This document shows, piece by piece, positions 23,743-29,314 of a stretch of DNA of 38,921 nt. The notes under the pieces are model-generated. The model was not told the DNA's origin, ran no database searches, and worked only from the letters and a program-made list of their open reading frames with translations. Origin of the DNA: Lachnospiraceae bacterium. Lineage in GTDB: Bacteria; Bacillota; Clostridia; Lachnospirales; Lachnospiraceae. Numbering within the stretch: position 1 is the first letter of the stretch; every line of letters starts with the position of its first letter. Position numbers and translations under genes: made by a program. The stretch covers positions 70,433 to 109,353 of the forward strand of contig JAGAMY010000005.1 of NCBI GenBank assembly GCA_017624495.1. The letters are read 5' to 3'.

Positions 23743-23766
23743 ATAAATGAAAAAAGGAGTGTGGAT

Positions 23767-25350
23767 ATGAGTCGCAGAAAAAAGAAAAGAGCAGCAGTGA
23801 TGCGCAAGGCTTTTACATGGGCATTTGGCACGATGGGATTTTTGATTCTTGCTGTTTATCTGTTTTTTGGATTTTATTTTCAGTCGCATTTTTTCTTTCA
23901 GACACAACTGGCAGAAATTGATGTCAGTGGAATGACAGCAGACGAGGCGGCAGAAGAGGTACGTTCAGAGGTTAAGGATTATTTACTGACGATTTATGAC
24001 AGAAATGGCAATAAATATCAGATTCTAGGAGTGGACATAGGATATGATTATCAGCCTAAGGGAGAAGAAGAAAAGCTCTTAGAAGAGCAGTCGCCGTTTA
24101 TGTGGCCAAAAGAAATCGCAAAGCCTAAGCAGCTAGATATGAATAAGAGCATCACCTATGATGAAGAGCTGTTAAAAGAAAATGTTTATGCATTAGCGTG
24201 TTTTCAGGCAGAAAACATGATAGAGCCTGTAAATGCGGAAATCCGTATGGTGGAAAGCGGTTATGAACTGGTAGAAGAAACGCAGGGAAGTTATTTATTG
24301 AAAGATAAAGTATATGATTTCGTAAAATCTGCTGTAGATGCAGGAGAAACAGAAATCGTTTTTTCGGATGAAGTCTACAAAAAGCCGGAAGTAACGAAAG
24401 AAGACCCGGTGTTATCCGCATGTATGAACCAGATAAATGCTTATTTTGGAGCAGAAATCACCTATGATATTGGCACAGATGTGACAGAAGTGGTAGATAA
24501 AAGTGTTATTTCCCAGTGGATTACGGTGGATGAAGCCTATAATGTAACTTTCGATGAAGAAGCAGTAGGTGTTTATGTACAGGGATTGGCAACAAAATAT
24601 AATACATATGGTGATGTCCGGGAGTTTAAGACGTCTAAAGGTAATACAGTATCCATAGGCGGTGGAGATTATGGCTGGGTAATTGATAAAGAGGCAGAAA
24701 AAAATGCTTTGATTGAAGAATTACGAAATGGTGAGGTTAAGACCAGAGAGCCAATGTATTCCCAGAGGGCATTGGTGACCGGTGTAAATGATATTGGAGA
24801 TACCTATATCGAAATTGATTATACAAACCAGCATTTGTGGTATTATGAAAACGGAAATTTAAAAATAGAAACAGATATTGTATCCGGCAATATCAATAAT
24901 GGAAATGGTTCGCCGGATGGAATTTTTAAAATCGTTTATAAAAAAAGTCCGGCAGTGTTAAAAGGAGAAGATTATGAATCAGATGTAACCTATTTTATGC
25001 CATTTGCGTATAATGTGGGAATTCATGACGCAAGCTGGAGAAATGGTAAATTTGGCGGAGATATTTATAAACGTTCAGGTTCTCATGGCTGTATTAATGT
25101 GCCAAAAGAAGCGGCAACAGAATTGTATGAGTGTGTGGCTACGGGTACACCGGTAATTGCCTATTATCGGGAAAAGGTGAATCTGACAGCAGAAAATACA
25201 AGGATTTCGAATGCATATTCCTATATTGACCCTGAAGAATTAAAGGAGATTGAGGCACAGAAAAGGAAACAGCAGCAGACGACGCAGTTAGCACCGGGGC
25301 AGGTGATTGCGGAAGATGGGAGTATTGTAGAGGCGGCACCTGTGGAGTAA
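23767..25350 (+). CDS. L,D-transpeptidase (YkuD) with PG-binding-4 domain, membrane-anchored
   Basis: 527 residues. A basic N-terminus is followed by one membrane anchor (~20-42), then an extracellular region of the PG-binding-4 type (repeated LAEIDVSGMTADEAAEEV-like segment). The YkuD catalytic domain covers ~345-470 (YIEIDYTNQHLWYYENGNLK, then the active-site block SGSHGCINVP). Cys442 of SHGCIN is the nucleophile that makes 3-3 peptidoglycan cross-links. A short Gln/Pro-rich tail ends the protein. ATG 23767 is 7 bases after GGAG; GTG 23761 is too close. It is transcribed alone, and the structured 300-bp element begins one base after the stop. Confidence 0.94.
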   Translation: MSRRKKKRAAVMRKAFTWAFGTMGFLILAVYLFFGFYFQSHFFFQTQLAEIDVSGMTADEAAEEVRSEVKDYLLTIYDRNGNKYQILGVDIGYDYQPKGEEEKLLEEQSPFMWPKEIAKPKQLDMNKSITYDEELLKENVYALACFQAENMIEPVNAEIRMVESGYELVEETQGSYLLKDKVYDFVKSAVDAGETEIVFSDEVYKKPEVTKEDPVLSACMNQINAYFGAEITYDIGTDVTEVVDKSVISQWITVDEAYNVTFDEEAVGVYVQGLATKYNTYGDVREFKTSKGNTVSIGGGDYGWVIDKEAEKNALIEELRNGEVKTREPMYSQRALVTGVNDIGDTYIEIDYTNQHLWYYENGNLKIETDIVSGNINNGNGSPDGIFKIVYKKSPAVLKGEDYESDVTYFMPFAYNVGIHDASWRNGKFGGDIYKRSGSHGCINVPKEAATELYECVATGTPVIAYYREKVNLTAENTRISNAYSYIDPEELKEIEAQKRKQQQTTQLAPGQVIAEDGSIVEAAPVE

Positions 25351-25351
25351 A

Positions 25352-25655
25352 GTGTATTGTGTGGCTAAGTTTCCGTCCGGTATTAATAGAGTACGAAGTC
25401 CGTAAAACAGGCAGAGAGAGTAGCTCTGTGGAAGTTCGTGAAAAGAGAGTTTCTAAACATTTTCATTTATGCAGTGGTAACGTTCGTTACCGAATCCGAC
25501 ACGGCATCCATGCCGTGGCGGATTCTTGCGCAAACGTCCGTGTTTGCGCATAACTATGTTTTTTAGAAAATGTAAGAAACACTACTTTTCACTACCAATT
25601 CCACAGCGCTACTCCCTCTGCCTGTTTTACTGATTTACGTTGTGATACCGGACTA
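25352..25655 (+). repeat. Structured 300-bp element, left copy (MITE-like, three-hairpin cloverleaf)
   Basis: About 92% identical by eye to the reverse complement of 28175-28477. The core 25375-25653 begins GTCCGGTAT and ends ATACCGGAC. Imperfect arms of ~90 bases (25375-25464 and 25566-25653) pair with each other. Inside lie three abutting hairpins: 25476-25491 (GGTAACG/CGTTACC), 25492-25525 (GAATCCG and ACGGCAT arms, 2x2 internal loop) and 25527-25550 (TGCGCAAAC/GTTTGCGCA). It encodes no transposase, so it would need outside help to move. It could also act as a structured RNA or terminator after the transpeptidase gene. GC content is visibly higher than in the cassette it borders. Confidence 0.85.
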
Positions 25656-25895
25656 GAGAGCGTAGGACGAGGCGAACAGGTGTCAAGGATTAAAAAGCAG
25701 CTGAAAAAGTTTTATTGATGTGTTATAGTATAAACGATATATTTGTAAACGCTCCATAGTGCGTACCTTTCAATAATTATCGTGGTTTGAGATAATAGTC
25801 TAAAAAATTCAGTATGGTATAATTTAAATGGAATTAATGATATGCAGAAACTATGTTTGTAAAATGAAATATTATTTTTAAAGGGGTTTGATTCA
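25656..25895. other. Non-coding leader of the nuclease cassette
   Basis: I see no gene in these 240 bases. They contain an inverted repeat ATTATC-9-GATAAT (25776-25781 and 25791-25796), then an extended -10 promoter (25815-25823) and the AAAGGGG ribosome site before ATG 25896. The repeat lies about 20 bases upstream of the -10, a place where a controller protein could bind. Confidence 0.5.
25815..25823 (+). promoter_or_regulatory. Extended -10 promoter of the PLD nuclease gene
   Basis: TGGTATAAT: a perfect TATAAT (25818-25823) with upstream TGn, about 70 bases before the start codon. The -35 region is weak. Confidence 0.5.
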
Positions 25896-27662
25896 ATGAG
25901 ACACGAATTATTAGAATATATTGTAAAAAATGGATTAGAATATCAAGCTATGAACATGGTTATGTTTAATGATATCGGTTTTTGTTTTATGCCAGTACTA
26001 TATCCAACAATAATTAAAGAAAATGGATTAATGAGTTTTTGTGGGGGGAAAAAACAATATAGTTTATTATCTTCAAAAAATAGTACTTATATGGTATTTG
26101 CACCTGAATTGATTGATGATGAGTATCGTGATGAAGATTTTGATAAATATATTTCATTTGTAAACAAAATGTGTGCACATCCAGAACATTTATATGGATA
26201 TACTGCAAGACATAAAGATAATGTATGGGGTGGATATATATATATTAAAAAGTCTAAAGAAGTTGGAATTGAGGAAATTAGAAATCTAATTATTTTGGAT
26301 TTTTTAGAACAGGCATCAATAAATTCAATTGCTGAACTGCATAAGTACATAGATAACTCATTTAATATTCGTGCAAAGAAATATGATGTTAATAAAGTTA
26401 ATTTAAGTCAAGAGATGATAGAAAATGGTGTTAATGATTTTACTGCACTAGGATTATTATTGGATAGTAAGTTTATAAATTCCTTAAAAAAAGCTGAAGA
26501 AGATAATGAAACCTATGTATATACGCAATATTTTGCGAGATTGATTAAAGCAGAAGAAGAAGTGTTTAAGAATAGAACTATGCCTATTAATACCTCTGTT
26601 ATACAGATTATAAATTTAACAACAGATAGATTATATGGGGTTGGATTTCAAACGCAGTTTAAGGAAGCTATAAAAATAGAAACAGATATTTCTAAAGATG
26701 TTTCAATAGTTAATAAAAATGATAAGATTTCTGATATTATTTTTAATATCATTTTAGAATTAAACGCAAATTCACTAGAGTTCTATGCTGCAACAGGTTA
26801 TGTATATGAAAGTGGATTATCAATGCTTGAACCTGTATATCAAGCATTGATGTGGCAATGTTTTGCAGGAAAAGGATACTCAAAAATTGAACTGACGATT
26901 GGTGCTCTTCAAAATTATAATGGTATAAAGAAAATGAATGAATTGAATTATGCTACTGCTGAAAGAATAAATAATATGATAGATAAAGGATATATAGATG
27001 GGGTGTATACATATCCAAATGCTTTTTATCATGGTAAGTTTTACTATATTAGTAATGGAGAATTAAGTTATGTCATAACAGGTTCATCAAATATTACAGA
27101 GTCAGCATATTGTAGTAATTATGAGTTAGATATGTTGTATCGGTTTGAAAGAAAAGATGGTGTGATGAGTGAATTAGAGAAATCCTTTGTTGATTGGTAT
27201 ATTGGATTTAAAAAGAAATGCATTATGTTTGATAGATTAGACTCAAATTTATTTCCTAGAAACATGAATATTGATGAAATTGGAAAAAATAAAAATGATT
27301 CTTTGAGAAGAAAAATAACTATACCAGAAGAAAGAGAAAGATATGACCTATTAATGAGTTATCAACCAGCAAAAATTGATGAACGTACATTAAAAAACAA
27401 ACGAGACATAAGACCTTTTAAAGGATATATTATTTTTGTGTATCCACAATATAATTTAACTTTATTAGAGTCGTTTGAATTTGGTAATGCGTGTTACATT
27501 TTTGGAACTTGTAACATTACCAAAATAGAAAATACTTTAATTGGAAAAACGAGAGAAAATGTTAAAAAGTCAGATTTATATCTTACACATATTGAACATA
27601 ATGAAAAATATGCTTATATTTTAGAGGAAGTTATAAAATCAAGTAGTAATGAAACAGAATAA
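25896..27662 (+). CDS. PLD-superfamily nuclease, probable NgoFVII/BfiI-like restriction endonuclease
   Basis: 588 residues, soluble. A single phospholipase-D-type active site lies at ~379-402: His379-Gly-Lys381, then 14 residues on, GSSN (396-399) followed by I-T-E402. This HxK...GSxN pattern lacks the classic Asp of HKD lipases and is what metal-independent PLD nucleases such as BfiI/NgoFVII-type endonucleases show, which dimerise to build the active site. The N-terminal ~250 residues and the C-terminal ~130 have no motif I recognise; one of them probably recognises DNA. Codon use is strongly A/T-biased (many ATA, AGA, TTA) compared with the genes on both sides, suggesting transfer. AAAGGGG precedes the ATG. 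The 3' neighbour is a methyltransferase remnant, supporting a restriction role. The exact family is inferred. Confidence 0.75.
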   Translation: MRHELLEYIVKNGLEYQAMNMVMFNDIGFCFMPVLYPTIIKENGLMSFCGGKKQYSLLSSKNSTYMVFAPELIDDEYRDEDFDKYISFVNKMCAHPEHLYGYTARHKDNVWGGYIYIKKSKEVGIEEIRNLIILDFLEQASINSIAELHKYIDNSFNIRAKKYDVNKVNLSQEMIENGVNDFTALGLLLDSKFINSLKKAEEDNETYVYTQYFARLIKAEEEVFKNRTMPINTSVIQIINLTTDRLYGVGFQTQFKEAIKIETDISKDVSIVNKNDKISDIIFNIILELNANSLEFYAATGYVYESGLSMLEPVYQALMWQCFAGKGYSKIELTIGALQNYNGIKKMNELNYATAERINNMIDKGYIDGVYTYPNAFYHGKFYYISNGELSYVITGSSNITESAYCSNYELDMLYRFERKDGVMSELEKSFVDWYIGFKKKCIMFDRLDSNLFPRNMNIDEIGKNKNDSLRRKITIPEERERYDLLMSYQPAKIDERTLKNKRDIRPFKGYIIFVYPQYNLTLLESFEFGNACYIFGTCNITKIENTLIGKTRENVKKSDLYLTHIEHNEKYAYILEEVIKSSSNETE

Positions 27663-27707
27663 AAACTTTACTTTCATATCAAACAGTGATACATTCCATT
27701 AGGATTT

Positions 27708-28154
27708 ATGGATAAAAATACTATTGCAAGTGATTTAGTATTTTTGATACCTGATGCAGGATTATATGAATTTGGAATTCTTATGTCTAATATACATAAC
27801 TCATGGATGCGGTTGGTAGCAGGACGTTTAAAGAGTGACTATAGATATGCTAAAGATATTGTTTATAATACGTTTCCTTGGTGTAATCCAACGCCTGAAC
27901 AGAGAAATAAGATAGAAGAAACTGCTCAAGCAATATTAGATGCTAGAAAATTGTATCCTAATAGCACATTAGCCAATTTATATGATGAGGTTTTAATGCC
28001 ACCAGAATTGCGTAAAGCACATCAATTAAATAATAAAGCCGTTATGATGGCATATAACTTCACAAAAACTGATTGTAAAGGAAAGAAGCATTGGTTATCA
28101 GAGCAGGAGTGTGTAGCAGAATTAATTAAGTTATATAAAAATTTAACAACTTGA
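27708..28154 (+). pseudogene. C-terminal remnant of an MmeI/YeeA-like type II DNA methyltransferase
   Basis: 148 codons. The peptide matches the extreme C-terminus of large class I adenine methyltransferases of the MmeI/YeeA group: GRLKSDYRYAKDIVYNTFPW, then AQAILDARKLYPNSTLANLYD, MPPELRKAHQLN and a final ECVAELIKLYKNL. The catalytic NPPY domain, the SAM-binding domain and most of the target-recognition region are missing. Homology seems to begin before the ATG: codons from 27690 read YIPLGF, conserved in the family, directly after an in-frame TGA (27687-27689). This points to a decayed gene rather than a small protein. The ribosome site is poor (AGGA only 3 bases from the ATG). It is in the same reading frame as the nuclease stop 45 bases upstream. 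Confidence 0.8.
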
Positions 28155-28174
28155 TTTTGGAGTTTCCCGTACAT

Positions 28175-28477
28175 TAGTCCGGTATCACAACGTAAATCAG
28201 TAAAATAGGCAGGGGGAGCTGCTCTGTGGAATTGGTAGTGAAAAGTAGTGTTTCTTACATTTTCTAAGTAACATAGTTATGCGCAAACACGGACGTTTGC
28301 GCAAGAATCCGCCACGGCATGGACGCCGTGTCGGATTCGGTAACGAACGTTACCACTACATAAATGAAAATGTATAGAAACTCTCTTTTCACGGACTTCC
28401 ACAGAGCAGCTCCCCCTGCCTGTTTTACGGACTTCGTGGATATAAATACCGGACGGAAATTTAGCCATACAACGCAC
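28175..28477 (-). repeat. Structured 300-bp element, right copy (inverted relative to the left copy)
   Basis: Core 28177-28454, bounded by GTCCGG and CCGGAC; homology with the left copy runs on to 28477 on the outer side. All three internal hairpins are kept. Three base pairs of the closing stem differ from the left copy on both strands in a compensating way (A:T to G:C, T:A to C:G, A:T to T:A), and two mismatches of the left copy are paired here. Together with the left copy it brackets 25656-28174. Between the pseudogene and the AP2/HNH-like gene (28155-28507) this element is essentially the only content. Confidence 0.85.
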
Positions 28478-28507
28478 ATCTGCCGTCTGTTTCTAGCATT
28501 GAAGAAT

Positions 28508-29314
28508 TTACCCCACAGCCCCAACCTCATCCAAATACTGCAAAAACTTCTTAGACAACTTCAATTCCGAATAAATCTCTGCATATTCCTTAGCCGACAA
28601 ATCCACAATATAATTCTCTGCATAATTTTTCACAATTCCATGCGAAATAGCACAGTCCACGGCCTTATTATACGCAATAGCCGCTGTAACCTCCGAATCA
28701 TATACACCAATCAAATAATTCCCATTTATATGCAGCCGCACTTCATAGCAGCTTTTTCCGTTTCTTACGGATGCAGTTACACCATAATAGCGGTTGATTA
28801 CAATAATATTGGAATATCGGTAATCAGTAGAATCTCCGTTGACAAAGGTGTAGTCCCGTCCGGCCACAGCAAAATTTCGTATACCGTAGCGGGAGAGAAT
28901 ATTTGTCTGCATACCATATTCATTTACAAAAAGATGTCCGCCCCGACGGATAATTTTATGACTGGAATAGTAGAATAAATCATCAATGTCAAATTTATAT
29001 TCCTCACTGGCAGAGAAATAATAGGAAAAATATTTTGCATGCAGATAAATAGGGGTTTTTATATAAATACGGTTATCCCGAAAATTTATCAAAGATACAA
29101 CTTTTTCAAAATTTAATGTTCTGGGATGGAACATTTTGTGTTCAAGAGAAATGTCCGGATTTTTCAAAACCTTTTCAGCTTCCAGATAAGCTTCATGTGC
29201 CTCTTGTTCCGTTTCAAAACTGCCCAGACTAATGTGTTTGTTTTGATATGTAATGTTAGAACGATAATAAATTGTACCGTTTTTCTTTTTTGCCTGATAT
29301 ACACCCGGTAGCAT
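28508..29314 (-). CDS. AP2/HNH-homing-endonuclease-like protein with degenerate HNH centre
   Basis: 268 residues. Two AP2-like DNA-binding segments are visible: residues ~18-48 (ISLGSFETEQEAHEAYLEAE) and ~178-222 (YEVRLHINGNYLIGVYDSE then AAIAYNKAVD). Between them, ~127-175 has the layout of an HNH_3-type core ending VNGDSTDYRYSNI, where homing enzymes have HxNGDxxDNRxxNL; the catalytic His position is Val158 here, so cleavage activity is doubtful. It probably binds DNA. AGGAGG lies 8 bases before the ATG. It is transcribed alone, convergent with the island, and its codon use resembles the core genes more than the nuclease cassette. The function is not known. Confidence 0.7.
   Translation of the reverse strand: MLPGVYQAKKKNGTIYYRSNITYQNKHISLGSFETEQEAHEAYLEAEKVLKNPDISLEHKMFHPRTLNFEKVVSLINFRDNRIYIKTPIYLHAKYFSYYFSASEEYKFDIDDLFYYSSHKIIRRGGHLFVNEYGMQTNILSRYGIRNFAVAGRDYTFVNGDSTDYRYSNIIVINRYYGVTASVRNGKSCYEVRLHINGNYLIGVYDSEVTAAIAYNKAVDCAISHGIVKNYAENYIVDLSAKEYAEIYSELKLSKKFLQYLDEVGAVG

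Follow-up and report, generated by a model that had tools for sequence, protein, structure and literature searches.

Inverted TwoAYGGAY units around a restriction-gene remnant as probable halves of a dispersed palindromic DNA element in Lachnospiraceae

We analysed a stretch of 38,921 nucleotides (nt) from the draft genome of a Lachnospiraceae gut bacterium (the window), in which two inverted copies of a structured element of ~300 base pairs (bp) stand on either side of an AT-rich restriction-gene remnant. Each copy contains a core of the TwoAYGGAY RNA motif (RF01731). The two copies probably make up a single TwoAYGGAY doublet, which would be a palindromic, interspersed and non-autonomous DNA element comparable to a REPIN of large size or to a miniature inverted-repeat element (MITE). 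The element is dispersed, its close pairs are divergent, its common ends lie flush with stop codons in its own genome, its site is empty in two relatives, paired positions change on both sides and the pairing is strand-neutral. The catalogued TwoAYGGAY 'RNA' may in fact form the head of a DNA element that spreads. In these genomes an RNA family of no known function since 2010, which Rfam groups with CsrA-binding RNAs, resembles a dispersed, paired and strand-symmetric DNA element.

The window pair and its copies in other genomes

The inverted arms 25393-25655 and 28175-28437 are 94% complementary across 263 nt, and a second inverted stretch (25352-25388 against 28441-28477) reaches 86% across 37 nt. 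Compared as core plus 60 nt on either side, the units are 91.7% identical, in agreement with the preliminary description of this DNA, which had reported two inverted ~300-bp copies of ~92% identity. Folded as DNA, copy 1 (25365-25665) gave -86.4 kcal/mol (z -14.2; 0 of 100 shuffles equally stable) and took the shape of a single long stem topped by a three-hairpin head. The ~300-bp element consists of the TwoAYGGAY core and a pairing arm of ~60 nt on each side. The cores were located by cmscan at 25433-25597 on the minus strand (115.5 bits) and 28233-28397 on the plus strand (116.1 bits), both covering positions 1-168 of the 168 in the model and far above its gathering score of 43.

Likeness to other copies, judged by eye, starts directly after the stop codon of the gene ldt (25351), reaches ~25672 on the inside and extends to ~28518 at the right. 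Copy 1, the left half of the doublet, was assigned to 25351-25672 on the minus strand from the inverted repeat, by-eye alignment to contigs C32 and C38 and BLAST against its own genome; copy 2, the right half, was assigned to 28175-28518 on the plus strand from the inverted repeat and by-eye alignment. Copy 1 contains ~18 nt of the central stem known from other doublets, and copy 2 finishes in an outer terminus resembling those of C45 and C32 (by eye). Exact matches to GTCCGGTAT and ATACCGGAC on the plus strand mark the outer foot (25375-25383) and the inner foot (25645-25653) of copy 1, and GTCCGGTAT also matches exactly at 28177-28185. The three hairpins described earlier were found again, but GTCCGGTAT is not the true end of the element, since an outer arm of ~80 nt continues in other copies. 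At the left of the window, only the innermost 18 nt of a 79-nt outer-arm query are left, directly after the ldt stop codon (E 0.011).

As expected, many further copies were found rather than none. The own genome, a Lachnospiraceae draft of 1.93 Mb in 51 contigs and 55% complete, holds 35 RF01731 matches, 34 of them above the gathering score (the 63 BLAST rows for copy 1 in this genome include palindrome self-matches). Ten of the 35 form five close doublets (C51, C38, C43, C32 and C35) and two are the window pair; for three, the BLAST rows show a partner in partial decay (C2:25699, C47 and C34:52491), 16 stand so near the edge of a contig that a partner would escape notice, and four remain (C24:15289, C10, C2:8174 and C45). 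The whole element in this genome is a palindrome of ~1 kb that runs outer arm, unit, central stem, unit, outer arm; the unit subtypes were named A, B and C. The two units are 0.55-0.76 identical in 24 other doublets (four from the own genome, 20 from elsewhere) compared to 0.917 in the window, the sole pair of the 25 compared with near-identical units. Bacteria do not stably maintain long, nearly perfect inverted repeats if the spacer between them is short, whereas a spacer of 2.5 kb makes such repeats tolerable, which is a plausible reason why the window units can be so alike. In addition, short near-perfect hairpins were seen by eye at G000:C34:52135-52260, C28:18601-18800, C40:47114-47242, C12:340-420 and C2:8400-8480, in which the head between the arms is gone, as if deleted via slippage on folded DNA.

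For the genus, 150 matches listed from 15 genomes were considered, and neighbours less than 1.5 kb apart were counted as close pairs. Among these matches, all 22 close pairs read (-)(+), i.e. are divergent, with a spacing of 176-492 nt and one exception at 973 nt. Among the 132 matches listed from other genera, four close pairs read (-)(+) and one (+)(+). The arrangement in the window had been described as a composite that carried or captured a restriction cassette, or as a cassette that could flip; an inverted layout is usual for close copies and by itself does not indicate capture of cargo. The lone tandem pair lies at G179:C36:54401-54869. Contigs often start inside the element, with 25 plus-strand and 4 minus-strand genus matches, among those listed, at most 450 nt from a contig start.

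Strand symmetry of the pairing and the connection to CsrA

Pairing is retained while the stems differ among genera, and in nine subtype-A copies 12 of 93 pairs show at least two Watson-Crick types, i.e. both sides change. In 158 unit cores from 32 genomes, GU pairs amounted to 343/9033 (3.8%) on the AYGGAY strand and 412/9105 (4.5%) on the opposite strand; by genome, 11 favour the AYGGAY strand and 20 the opposite strand. Since there were no tRNAs among the 24 loci, signal recognition particle (SRP) RNA from 30 genomes of the family was used as the control, which gave 520/2626 (19.8%) against 194/2273 (8.5%) and favoured the sense strand in 30/30. Pairing without a strand preference fits use at the DNA level or of both strands. 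With moderate confidence, the evidence as a whole points to such use and not to the mark of a single RNA strand. A mismatch count on loosely aligned arms (AC 742, GT 423) was discarded as an artefact of unpaired ends, the well-paired part giving AC 94 and GT 113. A sense function in 3' untranslated regions (UTRs) was rejected as well: among 109 single units, a gene end enters only the sense side in 22 and only the antisense side in 38 (p 0.05).

A tentative alternative to a palindromic DNA element is that each unit is a gene or a UTR module for a multi-copy RNA that binds and titrates CsrA, in which case the two GGA loops of one unit would hold one CsrA dimer. Rfam clan CL00106 holds both RF01731 and CsrB, and at least two GGA hairpin loops on one strand are found in TwoAYGGAY units. 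GGA is present in the loop of hairpin 1 in 140/155 and of hairpin 2 in 109/138, although these matches come from a model that itself contains GGA. The sequence ACANGGAYGT, which we take to be near the CsrA consensus, occurs in 56/158 cores and in none (0) on the opposite strand. The likeness to CsrB/RsmB (RF00018) lies in the GGA hairpin loops and the common clan, whereas the elements described here are many dispersed palindromic copies with strand-symmetric pairing. In the text available to us, Gardner and Eldai (PMC4333381) proposed TwoAYGGAY as a CsrA binder and called for validation; in the literature on TwoAYGGAY and CsrA, as far as it was accessible, no published binding test was seen.

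A survey of the family covered 299 genomes, roughly one from each genus; TwoAYGGAY was present in 45, CsrA in 153 and flagellin in 155. CsrA was present in 43/45 TwoAYGGAY carriers compared to 110/254 other genomes (Fisher p 3.9e-12), the carriers without it being G000 (half complete) and G181. This would support a CsrA-titrating RNA. However, flagellin was present in 44/45 carriers and coincides almost wholly with CsrA, so that motility explains the overlap equally well. Within the genus CsrA was found in 7/9 carriers and 5/6 non-carriers, which weighs against a CsrA-titrating RNA, as do the lack of strand preference in the pairing and the lack of a clear orientation of the units to genes. 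CsrA was not found in the own draft genome, itself 55% complete. Six genomes of the genus (G002, G004, G005, G006, G007 and G011) carry a second, divergent CsrA-like gene (E ~1e-14; open frames of 99-197 amino acids (aa)) beside the usual one of 73-81 aa, and the TwoAYGGAY-rich G004 and G007 show only the divergent type. A flagellin gene (48975) and the doublet G004:C125:45028-45562 are separated by 3.4 kb, possibly by chance.

The ldt site and the interior of the window pair

The left neighbour of the pair is the L,D-transpeptidase gene ldt (23761-25350, plus strand; YkuD PF03734, E 3.9e-19), the stop codon of which adjoins copy 1. In the relatives L107 and L108, ldt is followed after ~18 and ~36 nt, respectively, by thrS, without the element, the cargo or the 268-aa gene that stands at the right of the window pair, and cmscan found no TwoAYGGAY in the DNA examined around ldt-thrS. 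A search for empty sites had been proposed as a check, and at ldt-thrS these two relatives have them, so the order seen in the window is not shared by all. L102 has another gene between ldt and thrS and likewise no TwoAYGGAY. In the nearest relative, L101 (81% identity), a minus-strand TwoAYGGAY core (98.9 bits) follows directly after ldt and is interrupted by the contig end; in L103 TwoAYGGAY lies several kb off. The cargo is not present in the relatives' loci examined.

This cargo (25673-28174) stands where ordinary doublets have their central stem, as judged by eye from the end of similarity at both edges and from composition, the GC content being 0.277 in the interior and 0.44-0.45 in the copies. 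It contains an intact open reading frame (ORF) for a 588-aa PLD-domain protein (25896-27662, plus strand; PLDc_2 PF13091, 29.2 bits with a cut-off of 27, E 9.4e-7; PADLOC REase_II, E 1.9e-7), which by these profile matches is probably a restriction nuclease. Downstream, a 148-aa C-terminal piece of an MmeI-like type IIG restriction-modification enzyme is encoded at 27708-28154 on the plus strand (PF20466, PF20467 and PADLOC). It matches PF20466 at positions 147-205 of 207, which is the end of the target-recognition domain only, and PF20467, the MmeI C-terminal domain, and it aligns to positions 770-908 of 912 in the PADLOC profile. Only the tail of the enzyme is encoded, and the restriction system is therefore a remnant. 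The preliminary description of an AT-rich nuclease/methyltransferase cassette remnant (~2.5 kb) flanked by the copies was thereby upheld, as was the absence of a transposase, none being recognised among the four proteins scanned (ldt, PLD, the MmeI piece and the 268-aa gene). No recombinase was found beside the window pair, and the PLD protein has no relatives in viral contigs or plasmids.

The window pair is the only doublet among those opened that has cargo-like genes inside. That wide pairs regularly carry cargo was not borne out, as the interior of the wide pair G007:C39 (2.84 kb between cores) was interpreted as two core genes, ftsY and ilvA. Another wide pair is G018:C10 (3.4 kb). A doubtful reading is that the window pair is an inversion switch or a composite unit, in which two subtype-A halves would carry the restriction cassette between them. 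The pair is the only near-identical one of those compared, its interior has a foreign base composition and the cargo is missing from the relatives' loci, all of which would agree with this. However, a composite transposon would have two complete elements with intact outer ends, and the left outer end here is lost save for 18 of 79 nt. Moreover, the cargo gene is fragmentary, no second copy of the cargo was found in the relatives' loci examined, viral contigs or plasmids, and separate subtype-A halves could also meet through deletion or recombination. A composite of non-autonomous elements, as first proposed, is supported in so far as these are dispersed structured elements without a transposase; the core turned out to be the known RNA family TwoAYGGAY. 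A captured cassette would fit the window, but with the left outer end lost it is only a candidate reading. Judging from two inverted copies of 92% identity, inversion between them is possible.

Gene ends, the mover and known classes of elements

Outer ends were searched with the 79-nt outer arm from C30, which matched 32 places in the own genome (30/32 with E <1e-4). Six places where the match stopped short of the outer end of the query were dropped. Among the 26 kept, 16 ends begin 0-5 bp past the stop codon of an inward-reading ORF of at least 80 codons, compared to 1.0% of random intergenic positions within 5 bp (2.7% within 15 bp; 2% of random positions within 15 bp). Both TAA and TAG were seen, so the stop codons are part of the genes. 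The paired-arm ends of single units were compared with a control of 8.9% for a stop codon at most 30 bp away. Such a stop was found in 15/50 on each side in other genomes of the genus, in 10/88 and 11/89 in other genera, and in 2/19 and 1/19 in the own genome, where the outer arm lies beyond. These counts indicate that the flush position is a trait of the whole element in the own genome and is not general.

It is unlikely, on these data, that the doublets are two-way transcription ends or RNA stabilisers after genes, retained for their use and not by spreading. The stop-flush ends on either side in the own genome would suit this function, as would the strand symmetry of the pairing and the neighbours of 21 doublets with both genes called (8 convergent, 12 co-directional and 1 divergent). 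On the other hand, presence at the ldt site varies among relatives, a double cloverleaf of 1 kb far exceeds the size that a terminator needs, and flush placement is not general.

If the doublet is a mobile palindromic DNA element, each half would be a long hairpin with a three-hairpin head, the halves standing back to back. A trans-acting enzyme would recognise the hairpin heads as DNA and insert the doublet close to gene ends. At the window site a 2.5-kb restriction remnant would have taken the place of the short spacer, and this remnant may, but need not, move together with the pair.

With regard to the mover, a Y1 (RAYT/IS200) enzyme is disfavoured. Y1_Tnp (PF01797) is missing in 8/9 genus carriers (draft genomes), the one match being a broken piece, and was found in 6/6 non-carriers, often in pieces and once below cut-off; mobilisation by RAYT/IS200 was therefore not supported. 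REPINs, as far as Bertels and Rainey 2011 (PMC3116915) was available to us, are REP (repetitive extragenic palindromic) doublets in inverted repeat mobilised by RAYT. The elements here resemble them in that the apparent unit is an inverted doublet with a spacer, mainly intergenic, non-coding and present many times per genome. They differ in that short REPs are replaced by units of ~300 nt that bear a three-hairpin head, and the Y1_Tnp distribution speaks against a REPIN/RAYT mechanism despite the REPIN-like layout. Bacterial MITEs are short, non-coding and dispersed. Dispersed non-coding copies with inverted ends are a common feature, whereas here the palindromes are nested and neither a target-site duplication nor an autonomous parent was seen in the loci examined. 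The element had no blastn match in phage or plasmid collections.

TwoAYGGAY is listed in a table by Weinberg et al. 2010 (PMC2864571), and both window cores match its whole model. Unlike the published description, as far as available, the motif is here the head of a longer arm-and-head unit that occurs in many copies, in divergent doublets and with common outer ends. No statement of TwoAYGGAY as a dispersed or mobile repeat was seen in literature on TwoAYGGAY, RF01731, Lachnospiraceae MITEs and CsrA in connection with repeats or mobile elements, covered mostly without subscription papers. The behaviour of TwoAYGGAY in these genomes makes the old question of RNA, mobile DNA or both testable. 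It also cautions that mobile palindromes can end up listed as RNAs when genomes are screened for structure and covariation, and it hints that a spreading repeat may be linked to the CsrA network in gut commensals. In a speculative extension, which we consider rather improbable, TwoAYGGAY would not be a stand-alone RNA; flagellated Lachnospiraceae would harbour a mobile DNA class of its own, with TwoAYGGAY as its recognition head. Its members would be palindromic double cloverleaves with halves that necessarily differ in sequence, moved in trans by a non-Y1 enzyme, inserted flush with stop codons and offering CsrA decoy loops if transcribed, while like halves with a long spacer could carry defence genes. 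If true, a spreading repeat would be coupled to the global regulator CsrA.

Several points weigh against a mobile palindromic DNA element. Outside the genus, 19/20 best-match loci scanned have a single match (one of the 20, L078, holds an additional (-)(+) pair). The flush stop position is only weakly seen in the other genomes of the genus, and in other genera it does not rise above background. No target-site duplication was readable, the flanks showing no consistent direct repeat by eye, and no transposase partner was found, Y1 being the sole transposase family searched for across the genus. Just one site (ldt-thrS) was compared; the relatives used diverge too far for the insertion point to be placed to the base, and no close sister strain was among them. 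With respect to strand, the one E. coli csrB sequence compared, a true RNA, is also GU-poor (6/104 and 3/100). Where outer stems are well paired, isolated mismatches favour the AYGGAY strand (GT 90, AC 56), and GT likewise exceeds AC among subtype-A copies (39 to 15), with the structure taken from that strand. The AYGGAY-strand fold is more stable in 97/158 cores, and in 80/158 when the arms are included.

At the right of copy 2 lies the 268-aa gene (28508-29314, minus strand), an ORF that is AP2-like by eye, matches none of the families in Pfam, PADLOC and NCBIfam and has its stop codon within the right outer terminus. It is not present between ldt and thrS in L107 and L108, and may have arrived together with the element. 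The terminus itself (28490-28518), like those on C45 and C32, is of a second type (CTAG.ATTG..GAATTTACCCC) beside the usual TTACGGTTTGGCGATG end, and in the window this second type includes the stop codon of the 268-aa gene.

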